In this document: piece after piece, positions 45,027 to 62,749 of the stretch
How positions within the stretch are numbered: position 1 is the first letter of the stretch
How the letters are laid out: each line of letters begins with the position of its first letter
NCBI RefSeq assembly: GCF_022808325.1
Contig: NZ_JALGCL010000005.1
Span: 1-64,000, forward strand
DNA: 64,000 nucleotides
Reading direction: 5' to 3'
Origin: Cognatiluteimonas sedimenti
GTDB lineage: Bacteria > Pseudomonadota > Gammaproteobacteria > Xanthomonadales > Xanthomonadaceae
Program-made: the position numbers and the translations under genes
Notes under the pieces: model-generated
Seen by the model: only the letters and a program-made list of their open reading frames with translations
Told to the model about the DNA's origin: nothing
Databases searched by the model: none

Positions 45027-47447
45027 TTATTGAAGCTGGACGTCCATGAGGTCCATGCCCGCCTGCGGCACGTTGCTGACATAACCGGCGGCGAATGTCG
45101 TCCCCCAACTCAGCAACATCTTGATCCGCCTGGTCGCCGGATCCGAAAAGACCAGGTCGCCGCGGCCGTTCCCGTCGAAATCGCCCTTGCCCACGAGCCG
45201 GTAGCTCGGATCGAGCACTTTGCTGACATAAGTGAATCGGGTGGAGCCGTGCATGTACCAGACCACCATCTTGTTCGCGTCGTTGCGCACCAGCACGATA
45301 TCGGCATCGCCGTCGCCGTTGATGTCCTGTAGGCCGGCCGGCAGGTAACTTGACTGGTAGGTCAACCCCACGAACTCGTCGTCGAATGCAACCCCGGTGC
45401 TGAGACTGGCCAGCACCTGGCGCGACGCATCGATCCACAGCAGATCCTCCTTGCCATCGCCATTCATGTCGCCCGCACCGACGAACGCGTAATTCGTGGC
45501 CCGGGCGTGGCTGTTGTAACTTTTCCGCGTCGCCCCGGACATGTACCAGATGGTTACCTTGCCGGAAGCCTTGTCGCGCAAAACGATATCGGCGCTGCCG
45601 TCACCATTGATGTCCGCCACGGCGAGCGGCGCGAGGCTGGACCCGTAGGCGTTCGCAAGTACCTGGACGGTGTAGTTGGCTCCGGTACTGAGGGCCAGCA
45701 CCAGCTGTCGCGTCGCAGCGTTGTCGAACAGCAGGTCCGACTTGCCGTTGCCATCAAAATCCCCGGCGTCGACCAGGCGCAGGTTGCCATCCATCGTCGT
45801 CGATGAGTAGCTGCGGCGAGCGGCTCCATTCATGAACCATGTGGTGGCCTTGTCGCCTGGATGGTTGAAGAACACCAGGTCCGACGCACCGTCGCCATTG
45901 GCATCGAGCTGTCTGAGCAGCCCTCCGGCCTGGGGGTCCGGCAAGCCGACGACTGTTGCACGGAAACCGGCCACCGTCGGCATCGTCGCGGTGAGCGTGC
46001 GCGCGTTGTCCGCCCCGCTGTTGCCGCAGGCACGACTGCCGCAGAACGTGATCTTGGGATTCGAGAAGACCCGGTAACCCAGTTGTCCGCTGTCGCCATA
46101 CGCCATGACCGTGTAGAAATTGCCGGCCGAGGTGCCGGTCTTGTAGCCGAACGAGTAGGTATAGGCGCCGTAATCCTCCGGGTTGTCGAGCACCCCGTCG
46201 CCACCCTTGGCGGTTTCCTTGTCGTGCGCCGCGCCCATGTTGTGGCCGAGCTCGTGCGCCAAGGTCTCGTCCTGGCAGTAATAAGTGTTGCCGTCGGAGC
46301 CTGCATCCGTGCCATCTCCGACTACCGAGTAGGCAAGATCGTCCCAGCCTTCGCCGGGTTCGATCTTCTGCAAGCCACCGCCCAGCAGCCAGGCAAGTCC
46401 GCAACCGTCCTGCTCGGGATCCCGGAAATCGCGTACCAACGAAACCAGGTCCGCGCCGAACTGCTCGCGCGCCGCGCGCAAGGCGTTGAACGCGGAATTA
46501 GGCGTTACCGGACCCGTTCCGGCCTTGTAACCGCTGAGTTGTTCGAGCGCGGTATCGTTGCTGTTGGTGTCCGTGTAGGTGACTTTCATCGCCTTGACGA
46601 GCCGGACCTGGGCGCTGACCTTGCTGTTGCCATAGGCGGCATTGGCGACATCTACCAGATAGTTGAGCCTGGTCGTGGCGCCGGAGGTGCCGCCATTGGC
46701 ATTGGCGAACCCGCCGGTGTAGCCAATGACCAGGTCAACGGTGGTCGCCGCAGCCGGGGCGGCCGCGGAGGTCGTCGCACGAATGCCGGGCGACGCCGCT
46801 GCGGCGTCGGCGGCCGCGACGATGCCGGCGCCACGGGCTCGGGGGAGTTCGGATTCCGGAACGATGTGGTAATCCGGTCGCCGCGGTCGCGTCGCGGCAT
46901 TGACGATCGCAGCCACCTTTTCAGGATCGGTGTCGACCAGCCAGCTGCCGCCATCGCGCACTGCCAGTCGCAGCGGCGGCTTGCCGGGCTGGGCGATGGA
47001 GCCGAACGCAGCCTGCGCGCCGAACGTCAGGATCGCCTGCTCGTCCTCATGCCCCGGCCGATGGCCGATCCAGGTCCAGTCACCCGAGGCATGTTCGACA
47101 TGGCGGTCGTAGGCGAAGTCCAGGATCTCGCCTTCCGGCGTGGTCACGTGCAGGCGGCCGCCCGCAATGGCGCGCAGCGCATGTTCTTCGCTCAGTTCGG
47201 CGCGGTACCAGGTGTAGGCACCATCCCGGCGCACGATGCGGCCAGGGTAAGCCAACAGTTCGCCGTGGTCGGGGAGCCTGCCGAATCCCCTGGCGGTGCC
47301 GCGCTGCGCCGCAAGACCCATGGTTGCGATTGGCGACGCATCAAGCGCTGTCGCGGCCTTGGCCACCGGGGTGGCCACACGACCGACATCCTGGGTGCAA
47401 CCGCCGGCCAGCAGCAGCGTGGCGAGTAGAACAACACGTTTAAACAT
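45027..47447 (-). CDS. Secreted zinc metalloprotease (reprolysin-like) with C-terminal FG-GAP/VCBS repeats
   Basis: An 806-residue exported protein. A lipoprotein-like signal ends in LLLAGGC (about residues 11-17), suggesting an outer-membrane lipoprotein. After a propeptide-like region, the metzincin motif HELGHNMGAAHD occupies 398-409, with a Met-turn candidate VMAYGD downstream, marking a reprolysin-type (M12B-like) peptidase. The C-terminal half holds six Asp-rich VCBS/FG-GAP repeats (such as DANGDGASDLVF, DFDGNGKSDLLF, DINGDGSADIVL), a probable calcium-binding beta-propeller. The start at 47447 was chosen for the signal peptide; upstream frame is antisense to scoB. It is convergent with etfA. 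Confidence 0.88.
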   Translation of the reverse strand: MFKRVVLLATLLLAGGCTQDVGRVATPVAKAATALDASPIATMGLAAQRGTARGFGRLPDHGELLAYPGRIVRRDGAYTWYRAELSEEHALRAIAGGRLHVTTPEGEILDFAYDRHVEHASGDWTWIGHRPGHEDEQAILTFGAQAAFGSIAQPGKPPLRLAVRDGGSWLVDTDPEKVAAIVNAATRPRRPDYHIVPESELPRARGAGIVAAADAAAASPGIRATTSAAAPAAATTVDLVIGYTGGFANANGGTSGATTRLNYLVDVANAAYGNSKVSAQVRLVKAMKVTYTDTNSNDTALEQLSGYKAGTGPVTPNSAFNALRAAREQFGADLVSLVRDFRDPEQDGCGLAWLLGGGLQKIEPGEGWDDLAYSVVGDGTDAGSDGNTYYCQDETLAHELGHNMGAAHDKETAKGGDGVLDNPEDYGAYTYSFGYKTGTSAGNFYTVMAYGDSGQLGYRVFSNPKITFCGSRACGNSGADNARTLTATMPTVAGFRATVVGLPDPQAGGLLRQLDANGDGASDLVFFNHPGDKATTWFMNGAARRSYSSTTMDGNLRLVDAGDFDGNGKSDLLFDNAATRQLVLALSTGANYTVQVLANAYGSSLAPLAVADINGDGSADIVLRDKASGKVTIWYMSGATRKSYNSHARATNYAFVGAGDMNGDGKEDLLWIDASRQVLASLSTGVAFDDEFVGLTYQSSYLPAGLQDINGDGDADIVLVRNDANKMVVWYMHGSTRFTYVSKVLDPSYRLVGKGDFDGNGRGDLVFSDPATRRIKMLLSWGTTFAAGYVSNVPQAGMDLMDVQLQ

Positions 47448-47547
47448 CTGACTTGAACCCGTCTCTGCGACCCGGACCCGGATCATCGCCGAAATCCGGG
47501 TGCCGATGCATCCTGCCCATGGGGAATGCGGTTGCGGCCGCGCCTGT

Positions 47548-48183
47548 TCAGGCTGGACGGAAGCCGCAACCGGTCTTGGCCCGCAGCTCGTCCTCGCCCA
47601 CGCCCGGCGCCAGTTCGACCAGCACCAGGCCATCGGCCTCCACGTCGAACACCGCCAGGTCGGTGATGATCCGGTTGACCACGCCGACTCCGGTCAGCGG
47701 CAGGGTGCACTCCGGCAGGATCTTGTGGCTGCCGTCCTTCGCCACGTGCTCCATCAGCACCACCACGCGCCGGACCCCGGCCACCAGGTCCATCGCGCCG
47801 CCCATGCCCTTGACCATCTTGCCCGGCACCATCCAGTTGGCCAGGTCGCCGCGGTCGGTGACCTGCATCGCGCCAAGGATGGCCAGGTCGATATGCCCGC
47901 CGCGGATCATGGCAAAGGAATCGTGGCTGCCGAAATAACTGGCGCCCGGGCGCGCGGTCACGGTCTGCTTGCCGGCGTTGATCAGGTCGGCATCGAGCTC
48001 GGCCTCGGTCGGGAAAGGGCCGATGCCGAGCAGGCCGTTCTCGGACTGCAACCACACGTCGACGCCTTCGGGAATGAAGTTGGCCACCAGCGTCGGCAGG
48101 CCGATGCCAAGGTTGACGTAGGCGCCGTCCGTGAGTTCGCGCGCGGCGCGTTGCGCCATCTGGTCGCGGGTCCAGGCCATCAC
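47548..48183 (-). CDS. 3-oxoacid CoA-transferase subunit B
   Basis: Transfers CoA between succinyl-CoA and acetoacetate or a similar 3-oxoacid. It is the beta half (211 residues) of the SCOT-type enzyme. The catalytic glutamate lies in SENGLLG (about residues 48-54), and [24 protein letters not shown] in broken form and [10 protein letters not shown] are conserved. The start is [16 protein letters not shown]; a second ATG at 48180 overlaps the stop of the alpha gene. Together the two genes form a full transferase, ScoB-like; LpsJ-type naming in older genomes refers to this family. Confidence 0.92.
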
Positions 48184-48923
48184 TTCGCCTCCTGGCGGAT
48201 CGTGCGCTGCTCGATGCGCTTCTCGGGGGTGGCGTTGAGCACGATGCGATCGACGTAGATGCCGGGCAGGTGCACCTGGTCAGGATCGATGGCGCCGATC
48301 TCGACGATCTCCTCGACTTCTGCCACGCAGGCCTTGCCGGCCATCGCGCAGGCCGGGTTGAAGTTGCGCGCGGTCTTGCGGAACACCAGGTTGCCGGCCA
48401 CGTCCGCCTTCCACGCCTTGACCAGCGACACGTCGGCGACCAGCGCGGTCTCCATCACGTAGTGGCGGCCGTTGAACTCGCGCGTTTCCTTGCCCTCGGC
48501 GACCACGGTGCCGTAGCCGGTGGCGGTGAAGAACGCCGGGATCCCGGCGCCGCCGGCGCGCAGGCGTTCGGCCAGGGTGCCCTGCGGGTTGAACTCCAGC
48601 TCCAGTTCGCCCGCCAGGAACTGGCGTTCGAACTCCTTGTTCTCGCCGACGTAGGACGAAATCATCTTGCGGATCTGGCGCGTACCCAGCAACTGGCCGA
48701 GGCCGAAACCGTCGACCCCGGCGTTGTTGGAGATCACCGTCAGGTCCTTGGCCCCGGAATCGCGCAACGCGGCGATCAGCGCCTCCGGAATGCCGCACAA
48801 CCCGAATCCGCCGACGGCGAGGGTCTGGCCATCGGCGACCAAGCCCTCCAGCGCCTTTGCAGCATCAGGATAGAGCTTCCGGCCGCCCACCCGGCCCCGT
48901 GACATCGGTGTACTTGCCGCCAT
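48180..48923 (-). CDS. 3-oxoacid CoA-transferase subunit A
   Basis: Alpha half of the CoA-transferase (247 residues). The CoA-binding glycine-rich segment [14 protein letters not shown] is at about 37-50, followed by [15 protein letters not shown], and [16 protein letters not shown] near the middle. [20 protein letters not shown] is typical of the family. It is the first gene of the pair and is divergent from the glycosyltransferase operon across a 165-bp gap. It is a metabolic gene inside the etfA-metB interval and not evidently part of glycan synthesis. Confidence 0.92.
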
Positions 48924-49088: not shown

Positions 49089-50030
49089 ATGACATCCGCC
49101 AATCCTGAATATTCCGTCGTGATCCCGGTCTTCAACAGCCAGGATATCGTGCTGGACACGCTGCGCCGTACGGCGGCCTTTTTCGAATCCCGTCAGTTGT
49201 CGTACGAGATCATCGCCGTCAACGATGGCAGCAGCGATTGCAGCTGGGAGCAACTGGCGCAAGCGGCCGCCGAGAATCCCCGGATCGTGGCGATCGACCT
49301 GCTGCGCAACAGCGGGCAACACAACGCCAACCTTTGCGGGTTCCGCGCATCCCGCGGGCAATGGCTTGTCACGATGGACGACGACCTGCAAAACCCCCCC
49401 GAGGAAATCGCGCATCTCATCGAGAAGGCGAAGGAGGGATTCGACCTCGTCCTCGGCCGTTTCCACGAAAAACAGCACGCCGGCTACCGAAAGCTCGGAT
49501 CCCGGGCAGTCCGTGCACTCAACCAGCGCATTTTCGGCCAGGAACCTGATCTCGTCCTGAGCAATTTCAGGCTGATGCACCGGGATGTCGTGGACCGGGT
49601 ATGCGCGTATCGCGGCCCGTTCCCCTACATCCCGGGGTTGTGCCTGCGTTTCTCGGGGCGACGCGCGAATGCCATGGTGGAACACCACCCTCGCCGTTCC
49701 GGAAGCAGCAACTACAACTGGAGACGGATACTGACCTTGGTCTCCACGATCCTGTTCAACTATTCCTCTTTCCCCTTGCGCCTGGTTGCCGCACTGGGGA
49801 TATTCACCGCAATCGTCAGCCTCCTGCTTGGCCTCTACTACCTCGCGGAAGGAATCTTCGGGGGTGCGCGGGTACCAGGGTGGACGACCCTGGTAGTGAT
49901 GCTGGCGTTCTTCAACGGCATGACGATGTTGATGCTTGCGATGCTGGGCGAATACGTGGTCAGGATCATCAACCAGCTGACCATCGCGGATCCCTATTTC
50001 GTACGCCGGACCATCCGCGATGGAGCATAG
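49089..50030 (+). CDS. Family 2 glycosyltransferase, ArnC/GtrB/DPM1-like (undecaprenyl-phosphate sugar transferase)
   Basis: Predicted inner-membrane enzyme that puts a nucleotide sugar onto undecaprenyl phosphate. The 313-residue protein has a GT-A domain: YSVVIPVFNSQDIVLDTL in broken form, IIAVNDGSSDCSW, LLRNSGQHNANLCGFRASRG, and the DDDLQNPPEE catalytic metal motif. Two C-terminal membrane helices follow (LRLVAALGIFTAIVSLLLGL, LVVMLAFFNGMTMLMLAMLG). This is the ArnC/GtrB layout. The start at 49089 gives MTSANPEYSVVI; an upstream in-frame ATG at 49002 adds non-family residues. It opens a six-gene operon and overlaps the sulfotransferase by 11 bp. Confidence 0.88.
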   Translation: MTSANPEYSVVIPVFNSQDIVLDTLRRTAAFFESRQLSYEIIAVNDGSSDCSWEQLAQAAAENPRIVAIDLLRNSGQHNANLCGFRASRGQWLVTMDDDLQNPPEEIAHLIEKAKEGFDLVLGRFHEKQHAGYRKLGSRAVRALNQRIFGQEPDLVLSNFRLMHRDVVDRVCAYRGPFPYIPGLCLRFSGRRANAMVEHHPRRSGSSNYNWRRILTLVSTILFNYSSFPLRLVAALGIFTAIVSLLLGLYYLAEGIFGGARVPGWTTLVVMLAFFNGMTMLMLAMLGEYVVRIINQLTIADPYFVRRTIRDGA

Positions 50031-50760
50031 GCATTTCTTCATCGCCGGCGCGCAGCGCTGCGCGACAACGTATCTCTATCGCCTGTTCGACCAGCATCCG
50101 GCGATCACGATGGCCAGCCCAGTCAGGCCTGAACCGAAGTACTTCATCCGATCGGACGCGAAGGATGACGCGGACGCCTACCGCAGGCAGCTGTTCGCCA
50201 GGGCGAGCACGTCATGGCTGGGCGAGAAGAGCACTTCCTATATGGAATATTCGTCGGCCGCCGAGCGGATTGCTCGGGTGTTCCCGGACGCCGAGCTGTT
50301 CTTCGTACTGCGCGACCCAGTGGAAAGGGCCATTTCCAACTATCGTTTCAGCGTGATGAATGGCCTCGAGACCCTGTCCCTCGAAGACGCCTTGGACGCA
50401 GAAGTCGAGCGAATCGGCTGTATTCCCGAGGGACTCTCGGTCTCGCCTTTCGCATATGTGGGCCGGGGCCATTATGCCCGCCAGCTCGATGCCTGGAGCG
50501 CGCGCTTCCCCCCCGAACGCCTGCATATCCTGACCACCGAGCGACTGGTCGGCGATCCCGCAAATACATTGCGGGATGTGTTCGGGATGCTGGGAGTTGA
50601 CGCGGATGTCACATTGGACAGCCTCGACGGCGCCGTTAATGCTTCGAAGCCAACGCAGGGCGTCTCCGCCACGGTGCGGCAGCGTCTGCGTTCGGCTTTC
50701 GAGGCCTCCAACCAGAGACTTTCGGAAGACTTCGGCGTTTCGGTGGAGGATTGGCAATGA
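50020..50760 (+). CDS. Sulfotransferase (PAPS-dependent)
   Basis: Transfers sulfate from PAPS, probably to a sugar hydroxyl. The 246-residue protein has the 5'-phosphosulfate loop GAQRCATTYLYRLF at about 10-23, a P-loop-like pattern, and the 3'-phosphate loop LRDPVERAISNYRF at 97-110. WLGEKSTSYM in between carries the catalytic-loop pattern seen in NDST-like enzymes. It overlaps the glycosyltransferase gene by 11 bp and the following SMR-like gene by 4 bp, so it is an integral part of the operon. The acceptor is unknown; a lipid-linked or polymer sugar is likely. Confidence 0.9.
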   Translation: MEHRHFFIAGAQRCATTYLYRLFDQHPAITMASPVRPEPKYFIRSDAKDDADAYRRQLFARASTSWLGEKSTSYMEYSSAAERIARVFPDAELFFVLRDPVERAISNYRFSVMNGLETLSLEDALDAEVERIGCIPEGLSVSPFAYVGRGHYARQLDAWSARFPPERLHILTTERLVGDPANTLRDVFGMLGVDADVTLDSLDGAVNASKPTQGVSATVRQRLRSAFEASNQRLSEDFGVSVEDWQ

Positions 50761-51131
50761 TTCCGCGGCGCATTCCCCATGGCCGGGGAGTGATGGTCAC
50801 GCTGGTGTTGGCCACGGTGGTGATCCAGATCGTTGTGGCGGTGATGCTGAAGGAGCTGGCGGATGCCCACGGAGGCGATTCTCGCCTGTGGCTGCTTTTC
50901 GTCCTAGCCATCGCCGTGGCGCTCAATGGCCTGCGCTTCCTCGTTTGGGGCTACACGCACAAGCACTACCCCCTCAGTCATTCCTATCCTCTTACCGCGA
51001 TGTTCTTTCCCTGCATCCTGCTGGTCTCGGCCTGGTACGGCGACCCGATAGGGTGGGAAAAGCTCGGCGGTGTGTGCGTCATCGTGCTAGGACTCGTATT
51101 GATGACATGGAACGGCTCGGGAAATGCCTAG
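50757..51131 (+). CDS. Small SMR/EamA-like membrane protein, candidate lipid-linked sugar flippase subunit 1
   Basis: A 124-residue protein with four membrane helices (VTLVLATVVIQIVVAVMLKEL, LWLLFVLAIAVALNGLRFLVW, YPLTAMFFPCILLVSAWY, LGGVCVIVLGLVLMTW). The size and the SHSYPLTA and GVCVIVLGLVLM segments resemble SMR or ArnE/ArnF-type proteins, which move undecaprenyl-phosphate sugars across the membrane as heterodimers. A second such protein is encoded two genes later (51674-51982). It overlaps the sulfotransferase by 4 bp and the LbH acyltransferase by 8 bp. The start is ATG 50757; TTG at 50751 is possible. Confidence 0.72.
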   Translation: MIPRRIPHGRGVMVTLVLATVVIQIVVAVMLKELADAHGGDSRLWLLFVLAIAVALNGLRFLVWGYTHKHYPLSHSYPLTAMFFPCILLVSAWYGDPIGWEKLGGVCVIVLGLVLMTWNGSGNA

Positions 51132-51687
51132 CTTCGTGGAAGCCATCTGGAGACGACCGCGCGCAAAGCGTTGGCTCAACCATGCCTACGTCTATGCGAT
51201 CCAGCTCCTCCACCTGATCTTGGATGCTTCGCCATGGTTCCTTCGCAGTGGCGTCTGGAGACTGCTGCTGAAGGATTGCGGAGCCGGCGTGTTCTTCGAC
51301 CATCGCGTATACGTGAAATTCCCGTGGCTGGTATCGCTCGGCAGCGATATCAGCATCAATCGGGGCGTCGAGTTCTACTGCGGATTGCGTGAGCGCAGCC
51401 GCATCACGATCGGCTCCAACGTGCGGATAGCACCGAATGTTCGCTTCCATGCCGCCGGCCATGAACCGGACCTTCCGGACTTCCCCGATAACGGCGCCGA
51501 CATAGTCGTGGAGGACGATTGCTGGATCGGTGCCGGCGCAGTTGTGCTGCAAGGCGTGAGAATCGGTCGTGGCGCAGTCGTCGCGGCTGGCAGCGTGGTT
51601 ACAGGTGATATCCCTCCCTACTGCATTGCAGGCGGGGTACCGGCGCGCAAGTTGCGCGACAGGCGGGTCGAGCATGCATCCGGTTAG
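51124..51687 (+). CDS. Left-handed beta-helix acyltransferase (WcaF/Maa-like)
   Basis: Predicted O- or N-acyltransferase of 187 residues. The hexapeptide repeats form a left-handed helix: SLGSDISINRGVEFYCG, ITIGSNVRIAPNVRFHAAGH and, after a loop, IVVEDDCWIGAGAVVLQGVRIGRGAVVAAGSVV in broken form, ending PYCIAGGVPARKLRDRR, the classical maltose/galactoside acetyltransferase finish. The conserved catalytic His may be the H in AAGHEPD. Together with the aminotransferase two genes downstream it could acylate a 4-amino sugar. It overlaps its neighbours by 8 and 14 bp. Confidence 0.85.
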   Translation: MPSFVEAIWRRPRAKRWLNHAYVYAIQLLHLILDASPWFLRSGVWRLLLKDCGAGVFFDHRVYVKFPWLVSLGSDISINRGVEFYCGLRERSRITIGSNVRIAPNVRFHAAGHEPDLPDFPDNGADIVVEDDCWIGAGAVVLQGVRIGRGAVVAAGSVVTGDIPPYCIAGGVPARKLRDRRVEHASG

Positions 51688-51982
51688 TTGGCTGGCGCTT
51701 TCGCTGGGCTGCACCGCCCTCGCCCAGATCGCCTTCAAGCTCTACTTCAAGAGCCGCAAGTGGTGGGTGCTTGCAGCAACCATCGGCGTATTCATGCTGG
51801 TGCCTTTCACTACATACAATGCACTCAAAGGCTTGCCGTTGGCGACGGTCTATGTCGCAACTGCCGCCTCCCAACTACTTGTCGTGCTTCTGTCGCTTGC
51901 CTTCATGGGCGAACGTTATTCGACAAGGCAATACTTCGGCTTCGTGCTGGTACTCGCCGGCATCGTTCTTTACAACAGCTAA
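51674..51982 (+). CDS. Small SMR/EamA-like membrane protein, candidate flippase subunit 2
   Basis: A 102-residue protein with four membrane helices (VSWLALSLGCTALAQIAFKLYF, WVLAATIGVFMLVPFTTYN, PLATVYVATAASQLLVVLLSLAFM, FGFVLVLAGIVLYNS). This is the size and pattern of SMR proteins, and LPLATVYVATAASQLLVVL and the GERYS turn resemble the EmrE/ArnF C-terminal half (MGE...). It pairs with the 124-residue protein at 50757. Its ATG lies inside the LbH gene (14-bp overlap) and it precedes the aminotransferase by 12 bp. Confidence 0.78.
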   Translation: MHPVSWLALSLGCTALAQIAFKLYFKSRKWWVLAATIGVFMLVPFTTYNALKGLPLATVYVATAASQLLVVLLSLAFMGERYSTRQYFGFVLVLAGIVLYNS

Positions 51983-51994
51983 CGGGTACGCGCC

Positions 51995-53131: not shown

Positions 53132-54635
53132 GGGTTCCCATATCCGGATACAGGCGGTTACGTGCCTGGAAGGATGGCGAAAACAGGTTCAGCCGGTGCA
53201 CACGCATGAATTGCAGCAACCGTGCGCGACGTGCCGGTGTATAGCGGCAGATCACGATTTGGGGCATGCATTTTTCGGGGACGAGAGCGGGCTGCGCGGC
53301 CATCGCGCCGATCTGGAACGCCATTCGTTGCTGGTAAGCGCTCATGAACCTCAGGCTGCCCCAGGCGGACACGGCAAATGGAATCTGCAACACCAGCAAA
53401 CCCGCTGCGGCGACGCCCAGGATGGTCGTGCCTGCTTGCACGGTCGCGTTGCGGACCGCCTGGCCCCTCGATGCCTGCACCTGGTCAATGCCCATCAGCA
53501 GCAGTGCGAGCAGGTTCCATTGGTAGATCATCACGTAGCGCGGCTGCCACAGGTAGTCGCTGCCGCCACGCGCGCCTACGCGGGTGAGGATGATTCCCGC
53601 CAGCAACCCGTAGAACACCAGCATCATCGCGACCCCGGTGAAAGACGCCAGGGAAGAACGCGGTGCCGCGAATGCCCGCCACCAGAACCAGGCATGGGCG
53701 AGCGCGACAGCGACCGCCAGCAATATCTGGACTTCATCCGCCCCGGCACCGAACCATGCTTGTGAGTGGCTGCGGTGTGCGACCGACGATGACAAGGGAA
53801 TGACCGCCCATTTCCATGCCTGGGGGACTTGCGCCAGCAACAAGCCAAGCCCGCGGGCGGCCCCGCCCGTCACGACATGCTCCGGCGCCGGTATCAGCAA
53901 TCGGTATCCCAAGGCGTAGACAGCGTAGGCGGCCAAGACGATCGCAACGACCTGCACCGTTCGCTGCCAAGTCCGTTGGCGCCATGCATGGACGGCAGCG
54001 GCGAGGGTCGCGGCGATGGTGGTGACCAGGCCCGTGTCGTCGGTAACCACGTCCATCGCCAGGGCCGCGGCGAATGCGATTGACAGGGGCAGGCGCCCCC
54101 CGGAACTGAGCGCGCGCCAAGCCGCCCACAGGAAAACCAGCATGAATGCATGGCTGGTGTAGTTGAGCGTCAGCAGTGGCCAGGAGAGAACCACCGTCGC
54201 GTTGGGTGACAGATATACCGCCGCGAGCGCCGCAAACCCAAGTTGTGGAACAAGCCCCGGTACGGATTCTGGAACACCTTCAAGTGGACCGAGGTTTGGA
54301 AACGCAAAATGCCAGAGCAATGCCAGGTTGAGGCACGCGAAGAGCAGCCCGATCACGCTCTCGATCGAGAAGTCCAAGTCGAAATAGCGATAGTGGAACA
54401 GCAGGACCAGCTTGCGAAGGGGTTGCGAATGGTCGTTCGCGGCACGCTTCAGGAACAGGTCGCTGGCATGGAATTCGCCGGTTGCCGCTGGCCGCACCAC
54501 CGTATCCACCGCGTTCCAGCCATCGGCGACGACCAGGGGGTTGGCCGACCGGGCGGCGAACAGGAAAGCATTCAGCCCCATCAGCGCCAGCACTGCCAGA
54601 AGCAGGATCCTGCGTACCGCGAAACTGTCGCGCAT
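53028..54635 (-). CDS. Polytopic membrane protein of unknown family (possible GT-C-type glycosyltransferase)
   Basis: A 535-residue protein with about eleven membrane helices (LLLAVLALMGLNAFLF, ESVIGLLFACLNLALLWHF, YTSHAFMLVFLWAAWRAL, VQVVAIVLAAYAVYALGY, ILLAVAVALAHAWFWW and others) and a short soluble C-terminal tail. ATG 54635 follows GGGAG by 8 nt. The first loop has VVADGWNAVD, resembling the acidic loop-1 motif of GT-C enzymes, which use Und-P sugars. It could be the transferase for the sugar made by the operon. It shares its layout with the 555-residue protein at 33948. Family membership is not recognised. Confidence 0.62.
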   Translation of the reverse strand: MRDSFAVRRILLLAVLALMGLNAFLFAARSANPLVVADGWNAVDTVVRPAATGEFHASDLFLKRAANDHSQPLRKLVLLFHYRYFDLDFSIESVIGLLFACLNLALLWHFAFPNLGPLEGVPESVPGLVPQLGFAALAAVYLSPNATVVLSWPLLTLNYTSHAFMLVFLWAAWRALSSGGRLPLSIAFAAALAMDVVTDDTGLVTTIAATLAAAVHAWRQRTWQRTVQVVAIVLAAYAVYALGYRLLIPAPEHVVTGGAARGLGLLLAQVPQAWKWAVIPLSSSVAHRSHSQAWFGAGADEVQILLAVAVALAHAWFWWRAFAAPRSSLASFTGVAMMLVFYGLLAGIILTRVGARGGSDYLWQPRYVMIYQWNLLALLLMGIDQVQASRGQAVRNATVQAGTTILGVAAAGLLVLQIPFAVSAWGSLRFMSAYQQRMAFQIGAMAAQPALVPEKCMPQIVICRYTPARRARLLQFMRVHRLNLFSPSFQARNRLYPDMGTLSGLAPPGTHPPRPALRPGALPGQPIKAAVPAVH

Positions 54636-54766
54636 CAGGGCGCTCCCGGGTGGATTGGATGGCCCCACGAGCCACGGAAAACGACGGCAGGCCGCAATGC
54701 ATGGACACTAGCGGCCAATGATAATATGCCGCCCCCGTCAGAATTCTTGCACCTGGAGCGCTCCAA

Positions 54767-55240
54767 ATGAGGAACAGCCTGTTGATCGGCGCCTGCCTGG
54801 CCGCCGCACTGTGTGCGTGCAGCAAGCAGGATCCCGCCCCCGTCACCGAGGAGGCGCGAGCACCCGTGGCCAGCACTGCATCTGCCGCGGATACCGCGCA
54901 ACAAGCGCCCGCCCGGCAACAGCGCAAGCCAGTCACCGCGCAAGAAATCGACCAGATCAGGGCCAGTGGCCGGTCCGGCTTCTGGTCCGAACCTGACGCC
55001 TTTTGCACCGATGCCACCCGGCAGCAGGCGACCCTGTTCTGGAATATCGAAGGCAACGCGAAGGGCGTGACGGTCGTCCTGCTGGACAAGGCCGGGAAGG
55101 AACGCCGCATCGGCCAGGGAGGTCCGGTCGGGCGCAAGACGACGGGGCGCTGGCTGAAGGCCGGATCGACCTTCCTGCTGCGCGACAAGGACTCGAAGGC
55201 CGAGGTGGGGAAGCTCGCCATTGCCGGAAAGCAGTGCTGA
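54767..55240 (+). CDS. Putative lipoprotein of unknown function
   Basis: A 157-residue lipoprotein with a signal peptide and lipobox ALCAC (MRNSLLIGACLAAALCAC). An Ala/Gln-rich linker (about 25-60) precedes a C-terminal domain of about 90 residues that looks beta-rich (FWNIEGNAKGVTVVLLDKAGKE in broken form, STFLLRDKDSKAEVGKLAI). It has cysteines at about 80 and 157. A GGAG sits 9 nt before the start, inside the palindrome TGGAGCGCTCCA, and a TGATAATAT -10-like sequence lies about 48 bp upstream. It precedes the ABC exporter genes by 73 bp, but no link to export is shown. Confidence 0.75.
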   Translation: MRNSLLIGACLAAALCACSKQDPAPVTEEARAPVASTASAADTAQQAPARQQRKPVTAQEIDQIRASGRSGFWSEPDAFCTDATRQQATLFWNIEGNAKGVTVVLLDKAGKERRIGQGGPVGRKTTGRWLKAGSTFLLRDKDSKAEVGKLAIAGKQC

Positions 55241-55313
55241 AACCGCAACTCATCGCGGTTGCCACGATCGATGCCTGCGTGTCGAAGCGGGCATCGCAGC
55301 GAGTTCGCTTGAA

Positions 55314-56102
55314 ATGGACCTGCTGAGGACCGCGTTCACGGACTGGGCCAAGTCCGTGCGCATGGCTTCGTTGTGGGCAAACCTTGCCCTGGAAGACCTG
55401 CATGACCGCTACCGGCGCACGGCGCTGGGCCTGGTCTGGATCGTGGCTTCGTTTGCGCTCTTCGTCATGGTCAAGGTGCTGATCTTCGGCCAGCTGAGCA
55501 GCGCGTCCACGGCGGAATTCGGGATCTTCGTCACCATAGGCTTCGGTTTGTGGGCCTATGTCAACTCGATGGTCGTGGACGCCTGTACCGCCTACATGCA
55601 TGCACGCCCATGGATACTTGCCACGGCGATCCCGTATCCCGTCTTCCTGCTGCAGGCCGTCCTGCGGAACTGGATGGTTTTTGCGCTCACCATGCTCGTC
55701 ATGGCTGTCGCCCTTTATTGGAAACCCACTGGCTGGAGCATGCGCGCATGGAGCGTGCTTCCCGCACTCCTCTGCTACGTCGTGACTTCGGTGTGGCTGG
55801 CTGCGATCCTCGCGCCAGTCTGCACGCGGTACCGTGACGTTTACCATGCAATCCAGACCGGACTGCGGCTGGTGTTCTTTGCCACGCCGATCCTGTGGAT
55901 GCCGGCCGACAGCGGAAAGCTGGCCATGATTGCGCGACTGAACCCCATATCGCACTACATCGCGATCATTAGGGAGCCGCTGATCTACGATCGGATCCCG
56001 TCCGAAAGCTGGCTCGTGGTGCTCGCGATCAACGTCGTCGGGCTGGTGCTCGCGGTGTTCGTGTATGCCTCGACCCGACGGCGCGTGGCGCACTGGGTCT
56101 GA
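55314..56102 (+). CDS. wzm: ABC-2 type polysaccharide exporter permease (Wzm-like)
   Basis: Inner-membrane subunit that exports O-antigen or capsule. The 262-residue protein has the family layout: amphipathic LALEDLHDRYRRTALGLVWIV (the interface helix typical of Wzm/KpsM), then six membrane helices, with the VCTRYRDVYHAIQTGLRLVFFATPILW region and LNPISHYIAIIREPLI near the end, both typical of polysaccharide ABC-2 permeases. It lies 2 bp before the ATPase gene. The ATG at 55314 gives MDLLRTAFTDW; the frame extends further upstream but without family similarity. Confidence 0.9.
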   Translation: MDLLRTAFTDWAKSVRMASLWANLALEDLHDRYRRTALGLVWIVASFALFVMVKVLIFGQLSSASTAEFGIFVTIGFGLWAYVNSMVVDACTAYMHARPWILATAIPYPVFLLQAVLRNWMVFALTMLVMAVALYWKPTGWSMRAWSVLPALLCYVVTSVWLAAILAPVCTRYRDVYHAIQTGLRLVFFATPILWMPADSGKLAMIARLNPISHYIAIIREPLIYDRIPSESWLVVLAINVVGLVLAVFVYASTRRRVAHWV

Positions 56103-56104
56103 AC

Positions 56105-57130
56105 ATGTATCTTCGAGCCCGCGACATCACGATCGACTTTCCGCTGTCGTCCGGCTCGCACTCGAGCCTGGCCTCCAATTCCGACGACTCACCGCTAGGG
56201 GGCCAGATACACCAGGAACGCGGCAAGTCATTCGTCCGCGCGCTCGCCGATGTCTCACTGCACCTCGGGCACGGCGACAGACTCGCGCTCATCGGCCATA
56301 ACGGGTCCGGCAAGTCCACCTTGTTGCGGGCCCTTGCCGGGATCTACCACCCGACGCATGGCAGGATCGAAAGCGACGGCAAGGTATCCGGAATATTCAA
56401 CATGTCGCTTGGATTGCGCCAGGAAGCGACTGGATACCGCAACCTTGTTCTAAAGGGGCTGATTGCGGGGCGTTCACGGCGCCAGATCGAGGCGGCGCTG
56501 CCCGAAATTGCCGAGTTCACCGGTCTCGGACCGTACCTCGACATGCCCCTCCATACCTATTCCCAGGGCATGGCGATGCGGCTGGCATTCGCCGCGACCA
56601 CGGCTTTCTCGAACGACATCCTGGTCATGGATGAATGGATTGGCGCTGGCGACGCCGGCTTCCAGGAAAAGATCATCGATCGGATGAACGATTTCCTCCA
56701 CGCATCAACCATCATCGTCCTCGCCTCGCACAGCACGACGCTGCTGCGCCGCATCGCGAACAAGGCGCTGTGGCTGGAGCAGGGCCGAATACGCATGACC
56801 GGCGGAATGGAAGTCCTTGATGCGTATGAAACCGAAGTGGCGCGGCGCATGCTGCCACGGGGATTGCGCGAGTTGATCTCGGGCCGGTCCGGGATGTGGG
56901 TGGCGCCGGCTGGTGGTACGGACATGCAGTTGGCCTGGAACCTAGAAACCGCGGCCCAAGCCCTGGAACTGCGCGTGCTGCCGGAGCACGGCCCGATCAA
57001 GGCCATTCGCAACATCTCCGCGCAGGGTGCGTGGCGCCTGCCCGCGTGGGCCCACGCCGGGCTGGTCTTCGACATCTATGACGTCGCGGGGTCGACTTCC
57101 GTCGCCAGCATCACGGTTCCACCGCGTTGA
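56105..57130 (+). CDS. wzt: Polysaccharide exporter ATPase (Wzt-like)
   Basis: ATPase partner of the Wzm-like permease. The 341-residue protein has Walker A GHNGSGKS at 64-71, the family-typical signature YSQGM at 152-156, and Walker B with MDEW at 175-178 (LVMDEWIGAGD, as in Wzt/KpsT). An unusual Ser/Gly-rich insertion (SGSHSSLASNSDD) separates the first two strands. The C-terminal 85 residues after the nucleotide-binding domain are shorter than a complete Wzt carbohydrate-binding domain, so the O-antigen-recognition module is reduced or different. The stop abuts the stop of the convergent giant glycosyltransferase. Confidence 0.88.
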   Translation: MYLRARDITIDFPLSSGSHSSLASNSDDSPLGGQIHQERGKSFVRALADVSLHLGHGDRLALIGHNGSGKSTLLRALAGIYHPTHGRIESDGKVSGIFNMSLGLRQEATGYRNLVLKGLIAGRSRRQIEAALPEIAEFTGLGPYLDMPLHTYSQGMAMRLAFAATTAFSNDILVMDEWIGAGDAGFQEKIIDRMNDFLHASTIIVLASHSTTLLRRIANKALWLEQGRIRMTGGMEVLDAYETEVARRMLPRGLRELISGRSGMWVAPAGGTDMQLAWNLETAAQALELRVLPEHGPIKAIRNISAQGAWRLPAWAHAGLVFDIYDVAGSTSVASITVPPR

Positions 57131-60100
57131 TCAGGCTCCGCGCGGCCGGGGCTCGGACAGCAGCGCGCGCATGCGCTCGTTGGCGCGCTCCCTGGAAGTG
57201 ACATTACGCGCATAGGCCAGGCCAGCCAGGGAAAGGCGCTGCCATAAGCCGTCATCTTCGAGCAGGGCGATCACGTGCGCAGCGAATTCCCCGGCGGCGG
57301 CACCTACAAGCACATCGCTTCCGGGCGTCAGCTGCATGCCTTCCGCCGCGATCGGCGTGCAGACCGTCGGCACGCCGTGAGCGAGGCTGCCAGCCACCTT
57401 GCCCTTGGCACCTGCACCGTAGCGCAACGGTGCGACAGTGATGCGATGGCGACCGAGGAAGGCCTCGAGATCATCCACGAAACCGACGACCTCCACGCCC
57501 TCGCGGCTGGATAGCTCCATGACTTCTGGCGAAACATGGCTCCCGGCGATGTGCAGTCGGGCACTTGGCACGGATGCCAGGACCAGGGGCCATACCGCAT
57601 CGACGAACCAGATGATGCCGTCGGCATTGGGCGGATGACGGAACCCACCGACGAAGCACACGCCATCCCTGCCGTGCAGGCCCGGCGGGGCGTCCAAGGG
57701 ATCCTGGATCAACGGGAACAGGGCAATCTCGGTCCCGGGCAATTCTTTCCGCAGCAATTCGTGTTCGAATGCCGAGTGGACAAGCGCGACGTCCGCCTTG
57801 GAGATGACGCGCAACTCCCTTTCCTTGGTGCGCAGTGCGTTCGCGGTCGCCGCACCGTCACCCGTCAATTCGGCCTCGCGCATTTCGCGGAGATAATGCA
57901 TATCCGCATTGAGGAAGATGATCCTTGCAGCCGGGTACTTCCGCCGCAGCACATCGATGTGCGCATCGCCAACCCCGAACCGGTGCAGGAAAACCGTGTC
58001 GAATTGATCGTTTCGCGCAGCCAGGAAGGCCGCCATTCCCGGGTAGGCGGGATGATAGATCGCCTCGATCCCGATCCGCTGCAAGTTGCGCGTGGCCGCG
58101 CCGACATTCGCGAAGTTGTCTTCGGGGATGAATGTCACCTTGTAGCCCTGCCCGAGGAAGGCCTTCATCACCTCGAACGCCACAAGGGACCCGGCATCCT
58201 CGTCCGGCGTCGGCGTGCAATGGTCCACGAACAGCACCCTGCGGGTTACCGCCCGCTCCTTCTCCAGTTCGGGCCTCTCGGCATTGGGGCGGTGCGTGGC
58301 CAGCACGTGTTTCCATCGCTCGTGCAGCTTGCGCAGGTTCTCCACCTGGTAGGCCTTCGCCCCGGAACCCAGGTCAGTGCCGGAGCTGATGCCTTCGAAA
58401 TGCAGCAGTTGCGACAACGGCTGGACCACGGTCCGCAAGCCCGCCGCACGCACCCGGAACGCGAGGTCCGCGTCCTCGGCGTAGGCGGGAACGAACAACT
58501 CGTCGAAGCCGCCCAGTTCGATCCACGACTCCCGGCGCAGGATGATCGACGCACCGGAAACATAATCGACGTCGCGCAGGTAGCTGTATTCGGGGCGTCG
58601 GGGATCATCCAGACGTCCCAGGTTCCAGGCCGATCCGTCGCGCCAGACGATCGCGCCGCATTCCTGCAGGCGACCATCGGGATAGACCAGCTTCGAGCCG
58701 GCCAAACCGATGCCCGGCTCCGATTCCAGTGTCGCGACCAGTTCGTCCAGCCAGCGCGGCAGCACCAGCGTGTCGTTGTTGAGGAACAGGACGTAGCGTC
58801 CGCGCGCGTGGCGCGCGGTCTCGTTGCAGTTGCGGACGAAGCCGAGGTTGCGGCCATGGCGGACATGGCGCACACCGGGAATCGGCGTGGCCAATGCGGC
58901 CGCGGTGGCATCGGTGGAAGCGTCGTCGCCCACGAGGATCTCGAAACTGAAGCGCGTCTCGTGCGCGAGCAGCGCGTCGATGCAGGCCAGGGTGAACGGC
59001 AACTGGTTGAAGACCGGGATCACGATCGACACGTCCGACCCTGACTCCAGTTGCGGGCGCTGCTTCGCGCGACCGGCGATCTCGCGGGCCCATGCAAGCG
59101 CTTCCTCCTCCGTGCACGTGAAGTCCCTGGCTGCCCGCGCCTGCGTCCCGGGGACCGGCAGGCCGAAGCGCTCGATCCTGAGCACCACGTCGGTGGCATC
59201 GGTTTCGCCGAACTCCGCCACCAGGAAATCGCGGAGGCCTGCGTGGGAGCGGAACGGGGTGCCGGCTGGAGCGGCGGCGGCGAATTCGCCGCCTGCGATG
59301 GCGCCCGCTGCGCCTGCATCCAGGCTTGAAGCGGGCGTGGCCGACAATCGCAACAGGTCGGGATCCCCGGACTGCTGGCCATTCAAGCGCCGCATTGCGG
59401 CTCGCAATGGCCTGGTGACTCTCCAGCTGCGGCTGCGCAGGATGGTCGCCAACGCGCGGCGCAGCTCATCGGACTCGCGATAGGCCGTTGCAAGCGCCCT
59501 TCGCGCCGCGGTGTTTTCCTGGTCCCGCCGCCGGTAATCTGCCTGCGTCCGGCGCAGCTCTGCATCGGCATCCGCCAGCCGTGCTTCGTATGTCAGCCGG
59601 GTTTCGTGCAGCAGGGAGTCTGTCTCCCGGTAAATCCGCAACAGGGCATCGCGCTCCGCCAGGGCCGACTCCCTGGTCTCGCGGAGGCGCCGCACCCTGT
59701 CGCGAAGCAACGGTGCGCCGATATCAGACAGCGAGGCCAAGCCGGATCTCGGCGCGAGCAACTCGGCATCCGCAACCGTGCGGCCAGCAGCCCGGTCCCG
59801 GCACCAGCCCCAGACGGCCTCCATCCAAGCAGCGACCAAGGCAGGCAACCCGGGGGGCTCGACGATGCGCGAGGACGGCTGCAGGTAGGCGTCGATCCGC
59901 GCGCCGGCATCCGCGCCGATTGCGGGCCAGGAGAATCCCTGCTCGACGGCAATCCGCTCCGTGCAGCCACGCCAATCGGCGAGCAACTGCCGGTAGGTCA
60001 CGAAGCAAGCGCCGTGGTCGGCCGCTTCCGCGGCCGCCAGCCCATAGCCGACATACAGCAGGGCCGCGCTGGTGGCGCTGGTGTGGTCGCGGCGCACCAG

Positions 60101-60529
60101 CGAATCGATCACCTCGTCGCCGGGGCGCATCATCACGACCGGACAGGCCCTCGCGCCCAACGACCGCAACACGTCGGTCCAGAACGCGCGCAGCAGGGTA
60201 CAGCGCGGATCCTTGAGCACGAACAGGCGCGAGTCGCCGTATTCGCACTCGATCACCTGCCTTGCTTCGGCGTGGAAGCCGGCGGGGATGGACCCCGGGG
60301 GCGGCAATCGCAACGCCGCGAACGGGTCGTCCCAGGCCAGGTCGAAATAGTCGAGGATGCGGTCGTTCAGCTCGACCACGCCGCGCGGCTCCCAGTAACC
60401 GGATTCGTTGCCCTCGTTCGCCGGCAGCACGTCGCGCGGCAGGTCGGCGCCGCGCAGCGAGCACACGCGCGCCAGCGCGGAGGTGCCGGCGCGATGCATG
60501 CCCAGGATCAGTAGCGCGATGCGGTCCAA
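57131..60529 (-). CDS. 1132-residue fusion: sulfotransferase-like, coiled coil, GT2 and GT4 domains
   Basis: A very large glycan-assembly enzyme. Residues 1-230 look like a sulfotransferase-type fold: LILGMHRAGTSALARV (residues 7-22, phosphosulfate-loop-like), FVLKDPRCTLLRAFW and MRPGDEVIDSLVRRDH. Residues about 275-370 are a charged coiled coil (RLRETRESALAERDALL, ADADAELRRTQADYRRRDQEN in broken form). About 495-730 is a GT2 domain (SIVIPVFNQLPFTLACIDAL, FLNNDTLVLPRWLDEL). About 765-1125 is a GT4/GT1-like domain (FVDHCTPTPDEDAGSLVAF; GAGAKGKVAGSLAHGVPTV near 1040). It is 18 bp downstream of the other sulfotransferase. The domain functions are inferred; such multi-domain GTs occur in O-antigen loci. 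Confidence 0.85.
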   Translation of the reverse strand: MDRIALLILGMHRAGTSALARVCSLRGADLPRDVLPANEGNESGYWEPRGVVELNDRILDYFDLAWDDPFAALRLPPPGSIPAGFHAEARQVIECEYGDSRLFVLKDPRCTLLRAFWTDVLRSLGARACPVVMMRPGDEVIDSLVRRDHTSATSAALLYVGYGLAAAEAADHGACFVTYRQLLADWRGCTERIAVEQGFSWPAIGADAGARIDAYLQPSSRIVEPPGLPALVAAWMEAVWGWCRDRAAGRTVADAELLAPRSGLASLSDIGAPLLRDRVRRLRETRESALAERDALLRIYRETDSLLHETRLTYEARLADADAELRRTQADYRRRDQENTAARRALATAYRESDELRRALATILRSRSWRVTRPLRAAMRRLNGQQSGDPDLLRLSATPASSLDAGAAGAIAGGEFAAAAPAGTPFRSHAGLRDFLVAEFGETDATDVVLRIERFGLPVPGTQARAARDFTCTEEEALAWAREIAGRAKQRPQLESGSDVSIVIPVFNQLPFTLACIDALLAHETRFSFEILVGDDASTDATAAALATPIPGVRHVRHGRNLGFVRNCNETARHARGRYVLFLNNDTLVLPRWLDELVATLESEPGIGLAGSKLVYPDGRLQECGAIVWRDGSAWNLGRLDDPRRPEYSYLRDVDYVSGASIILRRESWIELGGFDELFVPAYAEDADLAFRVRAAGLRTVVQPLSQLLHFEGISSGTDLGSGAKAYQVENLRKLHERWKHVLATHRPNAERPELEKERAVTRRVLFVDHCTPTPDEDAGSLVAFEVMKAFLGQGYKVTFIPEDNFANVGAATRNLQRIGIEAIYHPAYPGMAAFLAARNDQFDTVFLHRFGVGDAHIDVLRRKYPAARIIFLNADMHYLREMREAELTGDGAATANALRTKERELRVISKADVALVHSAFEHELLRKELPGTEIALFPLIQDPLDAPPGLHGRDGVCFVGGFRHPPNADGIIWFVDAVWPLVLASVPSARLHIAGSHVSPEVMELSSREGVEVVGFVDDLEAFLGRHRITVAPLRYGAGAKGKVAGSLAHGVPTVCTPIAAEGMQLTPGSDVLVGAAAGEFAAHVIALLEDDGLWQRLSLAGLAYARNVTSRERANERMRALLSEPRPRGA

Positions 60530-60547
60530 GCGGATCTCCGGGGCGGC

Positions 60548-61471
60548 TCAGATCAGCGCGCGGTCATGGCAATGATCCAGGAACCGCTGTCGCACCACCT
60601 GCAGCGAGAGCTCATCCGCAGCGTCGCTGCCCGGCTGGCGGTCGACGATGTCGTAGACCTCCTGGGCGCGGCGGAACACGACGTTTTCCCGCAGCAGCTC
60701 GAGGTTCTTGCCGCGCTTGTCCTCGACCTGCGACGAGTTCACCTTGTTGCGCAGCGGCAGCAGGCAATCGGGCGAGAACTCCTCGCCCAGGAAGTCACTG
60801 ACCTCGCGGAACAGCTGCTCGGGTTCCTCGGCGATGCGATTGAAGCGCAGCCGGAAAACCCGCCGGCTGCCGAGGCCCCGTTCGGCGTACCACGCGTTCT
60901 CGGTGTGCGCGATCCACGTCTCCAGGCCTTGCTCGAGCGCCTGTGGGGCGGCGCCGACCTTGTCGAAGGATTCCAGCGACGTGGCGACTTCGTGCGGGCG
61001 TCGCAGGTTGTGGATGAAGACTGCCTGCGGAAACATCTCGGCCAGCGCCCAGGTGTAGAAGCTGTTGAGTGGCGTGCCATCGATCCAGCGCTGCTTGGGG
61101 TCGCTCGCGGCGCGCTTGATCTGCATCGGCGCGTCCTGCCGGTTCGCCGGCAGGCGCCAGCCCGGGTTGCGCACCGCATCGCCGTAGAAACGCAGGCACC
61201 GTTCCGCGAACGCATCCTGGACCACCGCGTCGACCGCTTCACCGATCCGCGCCATGAACGACGGCAACGGGAACTCCACGTTCGACAGGTGCGAGAAACG
61301 GCCGCGTTCGGACCCCTTCCCGTGCGACAGGTAGGCGCCGACGGCCATGCTGGCGATCCAGGCGGTCTCGGGCATCGGCTGGATGTTCGGATGCTGGCCC
61401 AGCGCCCAGGTCGTGACCGAGGTGCCCGAACGCGGGGCACCGATGATGAAAATGGGTCGGATGTCTTTCAT
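60548..61471 (-). CDS. Sulfotransferase family protein
   Basis: A 307-residue predicted PAPS-dependent sulfotransferase with the N-terminal phosphosulfate loop FIIGAPRSGTSVTTWAL (GAPRSGTS at 11-18) and a 3'-phosphate loop region HNLRRPHEVATSLESF near residues 184-199, where the usual RDP is replaced by RRPH. ERWIDGTP-like (QRWIDGTPLNSFYTW) fits the acceptor loop. It is read in the same direction as the giant fusion enzyme (18 bp apart) and follows metB by 64 bp, so it opens or joins a minus-strand unit. The acceptor is not known. Confidence 0.85.
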   Translation of the reverse strand: MKDIRPIFIIGAPRSGTSVTTWALGQHPNIQPMPETAWIASMAVGAYLSHGKGSERGRFSHLSNVEFPLPSFMARIGEAVDAVVQDAFAERCLRFYGDAVRNPGWRLPANRQDAPMQIKRAASDPKQRWIDGTPLNSFYTWALAEMFPQAVFIHNLRRPHEVATSLESFDKVGAAPQALEQGLETWIAHTENAWYAERGLGSRRVFRLRFNRIAEEPEQLFREVSDFLGEEFSPDCLLPLRNKVNSSQVEDKRGKNLELLRENVVFRRAQEVYDIVDRQPGSDAADELSLQVVRQRFLDHCHDRALI

Positions 61472-62723: not shown

Positions 62724-62749
62724 GGCTCTACACCTGGATCGAGGCGGGA

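Follow-up and report, generated by a model that had tools for sequence, protein, structure and literature searches.

A probable sulfated surface polysaccharide locus between etfA and metB of Cognatiluteimonas sedimenti

The interval between etfA and metB of Cognatiluteimonas sedimenti lies in a window of 64,000 nucleotides, the whole stretch of DNA analysed here (contig NZ_JALGCL010000005.1, positions 1 to 64,000). It encodes a Wzm/Wzt ATP-binding cassette (ABC) exporter and three proteins with sulfotransferase (ST) domains. Judged from the sequence, the locus very probably makes a sulfate-bearing bacterial surface sugar chain. The product is probably an ABC-exported surface polysaccharide, most likely an O-antigen, sulfated with 3'-phosphoadenosine 5'-phosphosulfate (PAPS) from CysD-CysNC, and two sulfation steps are probably involved. 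Rhizobial lipopolysaccharide (LPS) is among the sulfated bacterial polysaccharides. A sulfated surface polysaccharide had been proposed in a first-pass annotation of the window; the idea is now supported in silico by a survey of sulfotransferases in related genomes, by PAPS-site residues in all three proteins, and by a genome in which neither CysH nor PF01077 was found. The genes of the locus, 49089-61471, are as follows, with ST1 and ST3 denoting sulfotransferases, STL a sulfotransferase-like protein, GT a glycosyltransferase and TM transmembrane.

49089-50030, + strand: GT2, ArnC/GtrB-like polyprenyl-phosphate glycosyltransferase (ArnC structures over residues 7-311, E 1.6e-48)
50020-50760, + strand: ST1, sulfotransferase (PF13469 71.5 bits, cut-off 27; PF00685 40 bits, cut-off 22), overlapping GT2 by 11 bases
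50793-51131, + strand: EamA1, small ArnE/F-like membrane protein, candidate flippase subunit (EamA 22.5 bits, ArnF 28 bits)
51124-51687, + strand: hexapeptide acyltransferase, WcaF-like
51674-51982, + strand: EamA2, second small ArnE/F-like membrane protein (EamA 37.6 bits, above cut-off)
51995-53131, + strand: WecE, dTDP-4-amino-4,6-dideoxyhexose transaminase (605.5 against a cut-off of 375; 603.1 against 434.85, NCBIfam)
53028-54635, - strand: multi-TM protein, candidate periplasmic GT-C using a lipid-linked donor
54767-55240, + strand: small lipoprotein (sub-threshold Pfam match only)
55314-56102, + strand: Wzm (NCBIfam galactan Wzm model 160 bits, below its cut-off)
56105-57130, + strand: Wzt (ABC_tran), with a tail of ~90-100 amino acids (aa) and no Wzt_C domain
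57131-60529, - strand: STL sulfotransferase domain, coiled coil (about 313-366), GT2 and GT1
60548-61471, - strand: ST3, sulfotransferase (PF13469 88.9 bits, PF00685 26.3 bits)

Two routes to sulfation are proposed. In route A, WecE would make a dTDP-4-amino-4,6-dideoxyhexose (Fuc4N-like), which the ArnC-like GT2 would load onto undecaprenyl phosphate (Und-P). The lipid-linked sugar would be acylated by the hexapeptide enzyme, sulfated by ST1 on the cytoplasmic face, flipped by the EamA1/EamA2 pair, and attached as a side branch in the periplasm by the multi-TM protein. In route B, the main chain would receive its sulfate from ST3, STL or both while still in the cytoplasm, ahead of export by Wzm/Wzt, with STL occupying the position of a chain-terminator domain. 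The placement of ST1 beside an Und-P glycosyltransferase suggests that sulfation takes place while the sugar is still inside the cell and, because PAPS is cytosolic, sulfation must precede flipping. Since GT2 and ST1 are locked together, the Und-P-sugar or its nucleotide donor would be the likeliest acceptor. The analysis establishes the genes present, the sulfotransferase motifs, a predicted fold for STL, the coupling of GT2 with ST1 and the failure to find CysH or sulfite reductase in the genome searched; from these we infer the acceptor sugars, the order of steps and the flippase, GT-C and terminator roles.

Sulfotransferases and their distribution

The claim of two sulfotransferases in the interval holds, ST1 and ST3 both exceeding the Pfam sulfotransferase cut-offs. 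In ST1 the PAPS-site residues G10, R13, T16, T17, R98 and S106 are invariant in nine aligned sequences, in which the putative catalytic residues E38 and K70 are also conserved; its nearest solved structures are a bacterial sulfotransferase (6.5e-21) and heparan sulfate 3-O-sulfotransferases (5e-14). ST3 contains the motifs GAPRSGTS and RRPxEVATS, read from the sequence, and has OLS/CurM sulfotransferases as nearest solved relatives (E 5.5e-7 and 8e-4). The points of reference are the 5'-phosphosulfate-binding (5'-PSB) and 3'-phosphate-binding (3'-PB) motifs, the R/S spacing of SULT enzymes, and the catalytic roles of E184 and K215 in 3-OST-3.

A third sulfotransferase-like domain, fused to glycosyltransferases, had also been claimed. 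Against PF13469 the N-terminus of STL scores 14.1 bits, below the cut-off of 27, and it is nevertheless called a sulfotransferase-fold domain because of its predicted fold. R135 and S143 are invariant in 19 STL sequences, and the window's PAPS-site residues align with those of its relatives, four of six of which, when scanned, pass a sulfotransferase model (27.5-55.3 bits); the other two do not (15.9 bits; no match). The first-pass annotation had named a lack of PAPS-binding sites in the three domains as refuting evidence; 5'-PSB and 3'-PB residues are present in ST1, ST3 and STL.

At E 1e-35, ST1 occurs in two of 398 genomes of the order, that of the window included. A scan of genome contigs yielded eight distant copies, one from Chloroflexi, one from Planctomycetota and six from related metagenome-assembled genomes (MAGs) of Melainabacteria/Cyanobacteria, while in one scan of viral contigs eight stretches fitted a pattern and none was confirmed.

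Comparison of the etfA-metB interval across Xanthomonadaceae, suggested with the first annotation, covered eight other members of the genus, one genome from each of 35 other genera, and 12 further genomes (below, G-numbers denote genomes compared and L-numbers stretches of DNA examined). Of 159 family genomes, 152 yielded EtfA and 146 MetB. ST or STL was present in eight of nine genus genomes (the window's included), G001 being the exception. Among the 35 other genera 11 had one, detected by profile in ten and by Pfam in one (G015); sulfotransferases at this position are therefore not rare. Detection combined profiles grown from window proteins with a motif pattern, and Pfam for ten candidates, so that unrelated sulfotransferases are missed and the counts are lower bounds. 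The 35 genera were drawn from G009-G060 wherever a single contig carries both etfA and metB in the usual arrangement; G041 was excluded because its orientation differs. Intervals are partial in G026, G044, G129, G078, G104 and G067, G158 contributes 249 bases, and the contigs of the G005 and G006 loci are broken. Gene calls came from a codon-score script, which misses some genes and misplaces some starts.

In G006, a stretch near metB (L017) carries a TPR-sulfotransferase, Wzt, a glycosyltransferase, a 283 aa protein with ST motifs (below the Pfam cut-off) and an ST1-like protein, the rest consisting of pilus or secretion-like genes as read by eye. The order Wzt-GT-ST-like-ST1-like recurs in L055 (G025) and L059 (G033).

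The STL fusion and a possible role in chain termination

One alternative, rated only a little short of even, makes STL a chain terminator, such that a sulfate cap ends the O-antigen in the way that methyl or methyl-phosphate groups do in WbdD-type systems. The build of the window fusion, a modifying domain followed by a coiled-coil ruler (on a home-made heptad score) and GT modules, is of the WbdD type. In the Klebsiella pneumoniae O7 terminator the order is N-terminal methyltransferase, coiled coil and two GTs (PMC11231755). The window protein thus resembles WbdD and K. pneumoniae O7 ORF6 in its N-terminal modifying domain, coiled coil, two GT modules and adjacency to wzm-wzt, but differs in that its modifying domain has a predicted sulfotransferase fold and its neighbouring Wzt lacks Wzt_C (PMC11231755).

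The GT2-GT1 chassis of 57131-60529 is shared by 12 proteins, six with STL and six with a methyltransferase (two families). Placing the STL label on the chassis tree takes four changes, of which well supported branches force two or more; the label of G002, where the STL part is on a second stretch, was assigned by hand. Of the nine inner branches six are unresolved, and the label shows no more clustering than shuffling gives (270 of 500 shuffles were as low). Free exchange of the domain would produce this pattern, but so would the small size of the tree. On the same home-made score, a heptad stretch occurs in 14 of 18 STL proteins, the window's included, compared with 43 among 463 other proteins longer than 300 aa, and all six methyltransferase-GT2-GT1 fusions have a heptad-rich stretch.

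Genes following wzt point the same way. In 24 of 32 loci with a Wzt of at least 300 aa, the next same-strand gene codes for a methyltransferase (15), an ST/STL (8) or a pyruvyltransferase (1), compared with none of nine with a shorter Wzt (Fisher 7e-5, ignoring kinship); without L047, which has the window type of Wzt, the count is 23 of 31 (p 9e-5). Loci with the next gene on the other strand were left out (the window, L014, L018, L063, L031 and L032). Eleven of the 15 methyltransferases were assigned by Pfam and four by profiles made here, and of the nine short-Wzt neighbours four were assigned by Pfam and the others only by profiles made here. STL taken alone accompanies 16 of 37 long and none of ten short Wzt (p 0.01, ignoring kinship). 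These 37 include the window type without Wzt_C, and the Wzt lengths of G007 (340) and G015 (391, an overestimate), split over two stretches, were entered by hand.

Several observations argue against a sulfate terminator. Eight of the 32 long-Wzt neighbours show no such enzyme; the association of STL with long Wzt weakens to 12 of 32 (p 0.04, ignoring kinship) once the window-type Wzt is removed; and the chassis tree has the weaknesses given above. A Wzt with a cap-reading C-terminal module was not found in the window, although all terminated O-antigens are tied to such a reading module on Wzt (PMC11231755). PF14524 (Wzt_C), looked for in ten Wzt only, is present in those of L015, L020 and L036, which stand beside STL, and absent from those of the window, G002, G044 and G015. 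The possibility that the window tail is a divergent Wzt_C was rejected, there being no PF14524 match and no relation by profile comparison. The sulfate cap is therefore attractive for the family and weaker for the window. A sulfotransferase in a chain-terminator frame looks new. In a literature search that left subscription papers mostly outside, none of the matches listed concerned a sulfate cap or a sulfated Und-P monosaccharide.

A proposed lipid-linked cassette

Three-component Und-P systems act on ABC-exported O-antigens (PMC11127046). The window cassette shares with the Arn/Gtr systems of this kind (GtrA/B/C; ArnC/E/F/T; the Citrobacter youngae O1 pentofuranose, PMC11127046) the Und-P glycosyltransferase, small membrane proteins in the flippase position, a multi-TM candidate transferase and an adjoining ABC exporter. 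It differs in that it includes a sulfotransferase and an acyltransferase, and its flippase and GT-C are candidates. GT2 has near full-length homology to ArnC and GtrB-type structures and has C-terminal hydrophobic segments. In the multi-TM protein D38, W40, D59, R64, D68 and H69, which lie in an acidic loop between TM1 and TM2, are invariant in six homologs. RmlB is present in the genome (503 bits) and would feed WecE.

Linkage of GT2 to ST1 is the most constant feature of the cassette. In ten of ten loci (the window, G044 and the eight distant ones, with one of the six MAG loci ending at its contig edge) GT2 immediately precedes ST1 and abuts or overlaps it, and the GT2 upstream of the eight distant copies is 42-54% identical. 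The order GT2-ST-EamA1-acyltransferase-EamA2-WecE is found with ST1 in the window, in G044 and in the Chloroflexi stretch L085, and with a different sulfotransferase (355-359 aa) in G008 and G019. L085 holds the whole cassette together with Wzm, Wzt and a free-standing STL, the cassette genes being separated by two membrane-protein genes and transposase-like open reading frames (ORFs). Five other loci with GT2, EamA and WecE by profile (G002, G003, G007, G047 and G078) have no sulfotransferase between them, G007 having a methyltransferase in that place. The window cassette is 77/58/73/80/74/85% identical to that of G044, from another genus, and about 40/-/41/50/37/81% identical to the best same-genus relatives, which suggests movement or transfer as a unit. 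A pairing of Und-P glycosyltransferase and sulfotransferase conserved across phyla looks new; the pair is small and testable in vitro.

An unlikely alternative has the sulfotransferases modifying the main polymer directly in the cytoplasm, with ST1 merely sharing an operon with an Arn-like cassette that is an independent side-branch system. In its favour, Wzm/Wzt polymers are completed in the cytosol, the site of PAPS; STL-GT2-GT1 and ST3 adjoin Wzm/Wzt; and Cobetia offers a precedent in its ABC-exported sulfated capsule with PAPS genes (PMC11766843). The constant position of GT2 before ST1 speaks against it, however, as does the lack of Wzm/Wzt by profile in seven of the eight distant ST1 loci (up to 8 kb each side).

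The proposed route through a lipid-linked sugar faces difficulties of its own. GT2 scores 187 bits against the ArnC NCBIfam model, below the cut-off of 529; the EamA and ArnF matches of EamA1 (ArnF E 2e-6) are both below cut-off; EamA2 is below the ArnF/ArnE cut-offs and weaker than EamA1 for ArnF; and the GT-C candidate has no Pfam match and no sequence match in the Protein Data Bank (PDB). WecE occurs in two of the eight distant ST1 loci, and EamA with the acyltransferase in one (stretch read). Given that six of the eight are close kin, that seven have no EamA/acyltransferase and that six have no WecE, the GT2-ST1 pair alone can be called general. Remoter homologs of ST1 occur in other genetic contexts, with matches in 92 plasmid records; the one inspected, on Sinorhizobium meliloti pSymB (35%), is in an apparent Wzx/Wzy-type cluster, which lacks that GT2 and has two further sulfotransferase genes. 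The acceptor of ST1 could be a nucleotide sugar or a polymer and not an Und-P-sugar. In Aeromonas salmonicida, a sulfotransferase-domain gene stands beside wzt, yet no such residue is apparent in the O-antigen structure (PMC4483657).

Known systems supply partial parallels. Dolichyl phosphate (Dol-P)-linked glycans of Halobacterium are sulfated (PMC4335974), so that sulfation at a lipid-linked stage is common to them and route A; the archaeal product differs in being an oligosaccharide destined for protein, and its sulfating enzyme is not identified in PMC4335974. Synechan xss (PMC8205485) and Cobetia (PMC11766843) have sulfotransferases in the polysaccharide locus, as does the window, together with PAPS genes in Cobetia, from which sulfated O-polysaccharides are also known (reference titles in PMC11766843). 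They differ in that synechan is of Wzx/Wzy type and the Cobetia capsule of kps type, and the portions seen of both papers mention no pair of Und-P GT2 and sulfotransferase.

A broader proposal combines three parts: that bacteria of several phyla sulfate an Und-P-linked monosaccharide, then flip it and use it to decorate an ABC-exported O-antigen; that in Xanthomonadaceae a sulfotransferase domain replaces the terminator methyltransferase, allowing sulfate instead of methyl to mark the finished chain; and that PAPS synthesis is kept in the lineage only for sulfation. Taken whole it is less likely than not. If true, it would give bacterial glycan assembly two further elements, a lipid-linked monosaccharide donor that bears sulfate and a chain-end signal that consists of sulfate.

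Some details of these loci may be recorded. The WecE and multi-TM genes of the window are convergent and overlap by 104 bases (53028-53131). No sequence link was found between the GT-C candidate and the membrane proteins beside the distant ST1 copies or at 33948-35615. In L085, ORFs resembling transposase fragments, read by eye, lie between the acyltransferase and EamA2 (14055-14703). The G044 locus, L063, is the most like the window's and has two more ST-like starts, at 4823-5593, which passes PF03567 (28 bits), and at 15165-16289, without a Pfam match at E 0.01.

PAPS supply and sulfur metabolism

The PAPS genes lie on the other side of etfBA from the glycan locus.

38206-40098, - strand: CysNC, sulfate adenylyltransferase large subunit fused to adenosine 5'-phosphosulfate (APS) kinase, for PAPS synthesis (PF01583 235.7 bits, PF00009 136 bits)
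40214-41125, - strand: CysD, the sole PF01507 match found in the genome
41203-42981, - strand: permease with TrkA_C domains (CitMHS/Na_sulph_symp), candidate sulfate importer (PF03600 263 bits, PF00939 35 bits)

Pfam thus confirms CysNC, CysD and a CitMHS/TrkA_C/Na_sulph_symp permease where cysD-cysNC and a probable sulfate permease had been placed. The first-pass annotation had cautioned that cysDNC also serves cysteine synthesis and had suggested a look for reductive genes elsewhere. The source genome (2.74 Mb, six contigs) is 99.97% complete. A PF01507 search of it revealed no CysH-type PAPS/APS reductase, the single match being CysD, and the sulfite/nitrite reductase model PF01077, positive in 11 of 14 control genomes, had no match; CysJ was not searched for. 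These results answer the caveat, and reductive cysteine synthesis as the reason for cysDNC was rejected on them. A PAPS pathway without a visible reductive branch looks new, and a literature search on lost cysH turned up nothing useful. If the proposal is true, such a genome would offer a clean genetic setting, in which sulfation could be studied apart from cysteine synthesis. CBS adjoins MetB (61536-64000) and, with neither CysH nor sulfite reductase detected in the genome, this neighbourhood suggests that cysteine may be made by reverse transsulfuration, CBS acting with MetB as a gamma-lyase.

PF01507 is present in eight of the nine genus genomes, with a second match of CysH-like span only in G007; the two matches in G006 both have a CysD-like span, G001 shows a weak partial one, and G005 (76% complete) shows none. 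Of the 159 genomes, 146 have a strong PF01507 match, and 135 of these also have PF13469 (E <= 0.001), as do two of the other 13 (Fisher 1.7e-9, ignoring kinship), G010 and G061, which have weak matches (2e-5), being counted as lacking PF01507. The two that have PF13469 without PF01507, G054 and G093, are 81-85% complete. Exactly one strong PF01507 match was found in 30 genomes, all with at least one PF13469 match, and the CysD span is 681-684 bases in all 19 for which the match span is known. A different role for the sulfotransferase-like proteins, as mere P-loop relatives, with cysDNC retained for some other purpose, is very improbable: the sub-cut-off Pfam score of the window STL favours it, but the 3'-phosphate site (R-x7-S) and 5'-PSB are conserved, STL has a predicted ST fold, and PF13469 and PF01507 co-occur as above, even if PF13469 there includes other sulfotransferases, such as long ones (500 aa and over) elsewhere. 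The genome of the window has nine PF13469 matches, which tells against the locus as the sole use of PAPS; the PAPS is probably shared with proteins outside it.

Extent and flanks of the locus

The interval is bounded, and in part occupied, by the following genes.

43128-43874, + strand: EtfB, left boundary (named from place and sequence, without a Pfam scan)
43978-44922, + strand: EtfA, left boundary (Pfam)
45027-47486, - strand: reprolysin-like metalloprotease with FG-GAP repeats, outside the glycan pathway
47548-48905, - strand: ScoB/ScoA CoA-transferase (PF01144 in both)
61536-62723, - strand: MetB, cystathionine gamma-synthase/lyase, right boundary (PF01053 507 bits)

The interval had been recognized as the address of the variable LPS O-antigen locus, and its flanks, Wzm/Wzt and variable content are indeed those of the Xanthomonadaceae LPS locus. 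The ABC exporter was likewise rightly named, Wzm by the NCBIfam galactan model (below cut-off) and Wzt by ABC_tran. The extent first assigned, 45027..61471, stands for 49089-61471 and not for 45027-48905, because that part encodes the protease and ScoB/ScoA. That sulfation enzymes predominate was too strong a statement: three of the 12 proteins of 49089-61471 carry a sulfotransferase domain. Flanks, Wzm/Wzt, highly variable content and horizontal replacement are common to the window and the Xanthomonas etfA-metB locus (PMC2238763); sulfotransferases are the window's own feature, the main text of PMC2238763 on the Xanthomonas locus containing no word that starts with "sulf". The 3-oxoacid CoA transferases lpsIJ are named close to that locus (PMC2238763). 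G+C is 62.3% over 49089-57130 and 70.1% for etfBA.

Profile matches to the 45027-47486 protease occur in the same etfA-metB interval of several genera, with a long tandem series in G022 (L052). A second glycan-like island, 31833-38092, is on the far side of cysNC (62.0% G+C over 31833-35615) and encodes WcbI (PF18588), GSCFA (PF08885), a multi-TM protein without a Pfam match, and a Methyltransf_24 protein (37178-38092). In G007, homologs of WcbI and GSCFA sit within the etfA-metB locus itself (L013:16880-18917).

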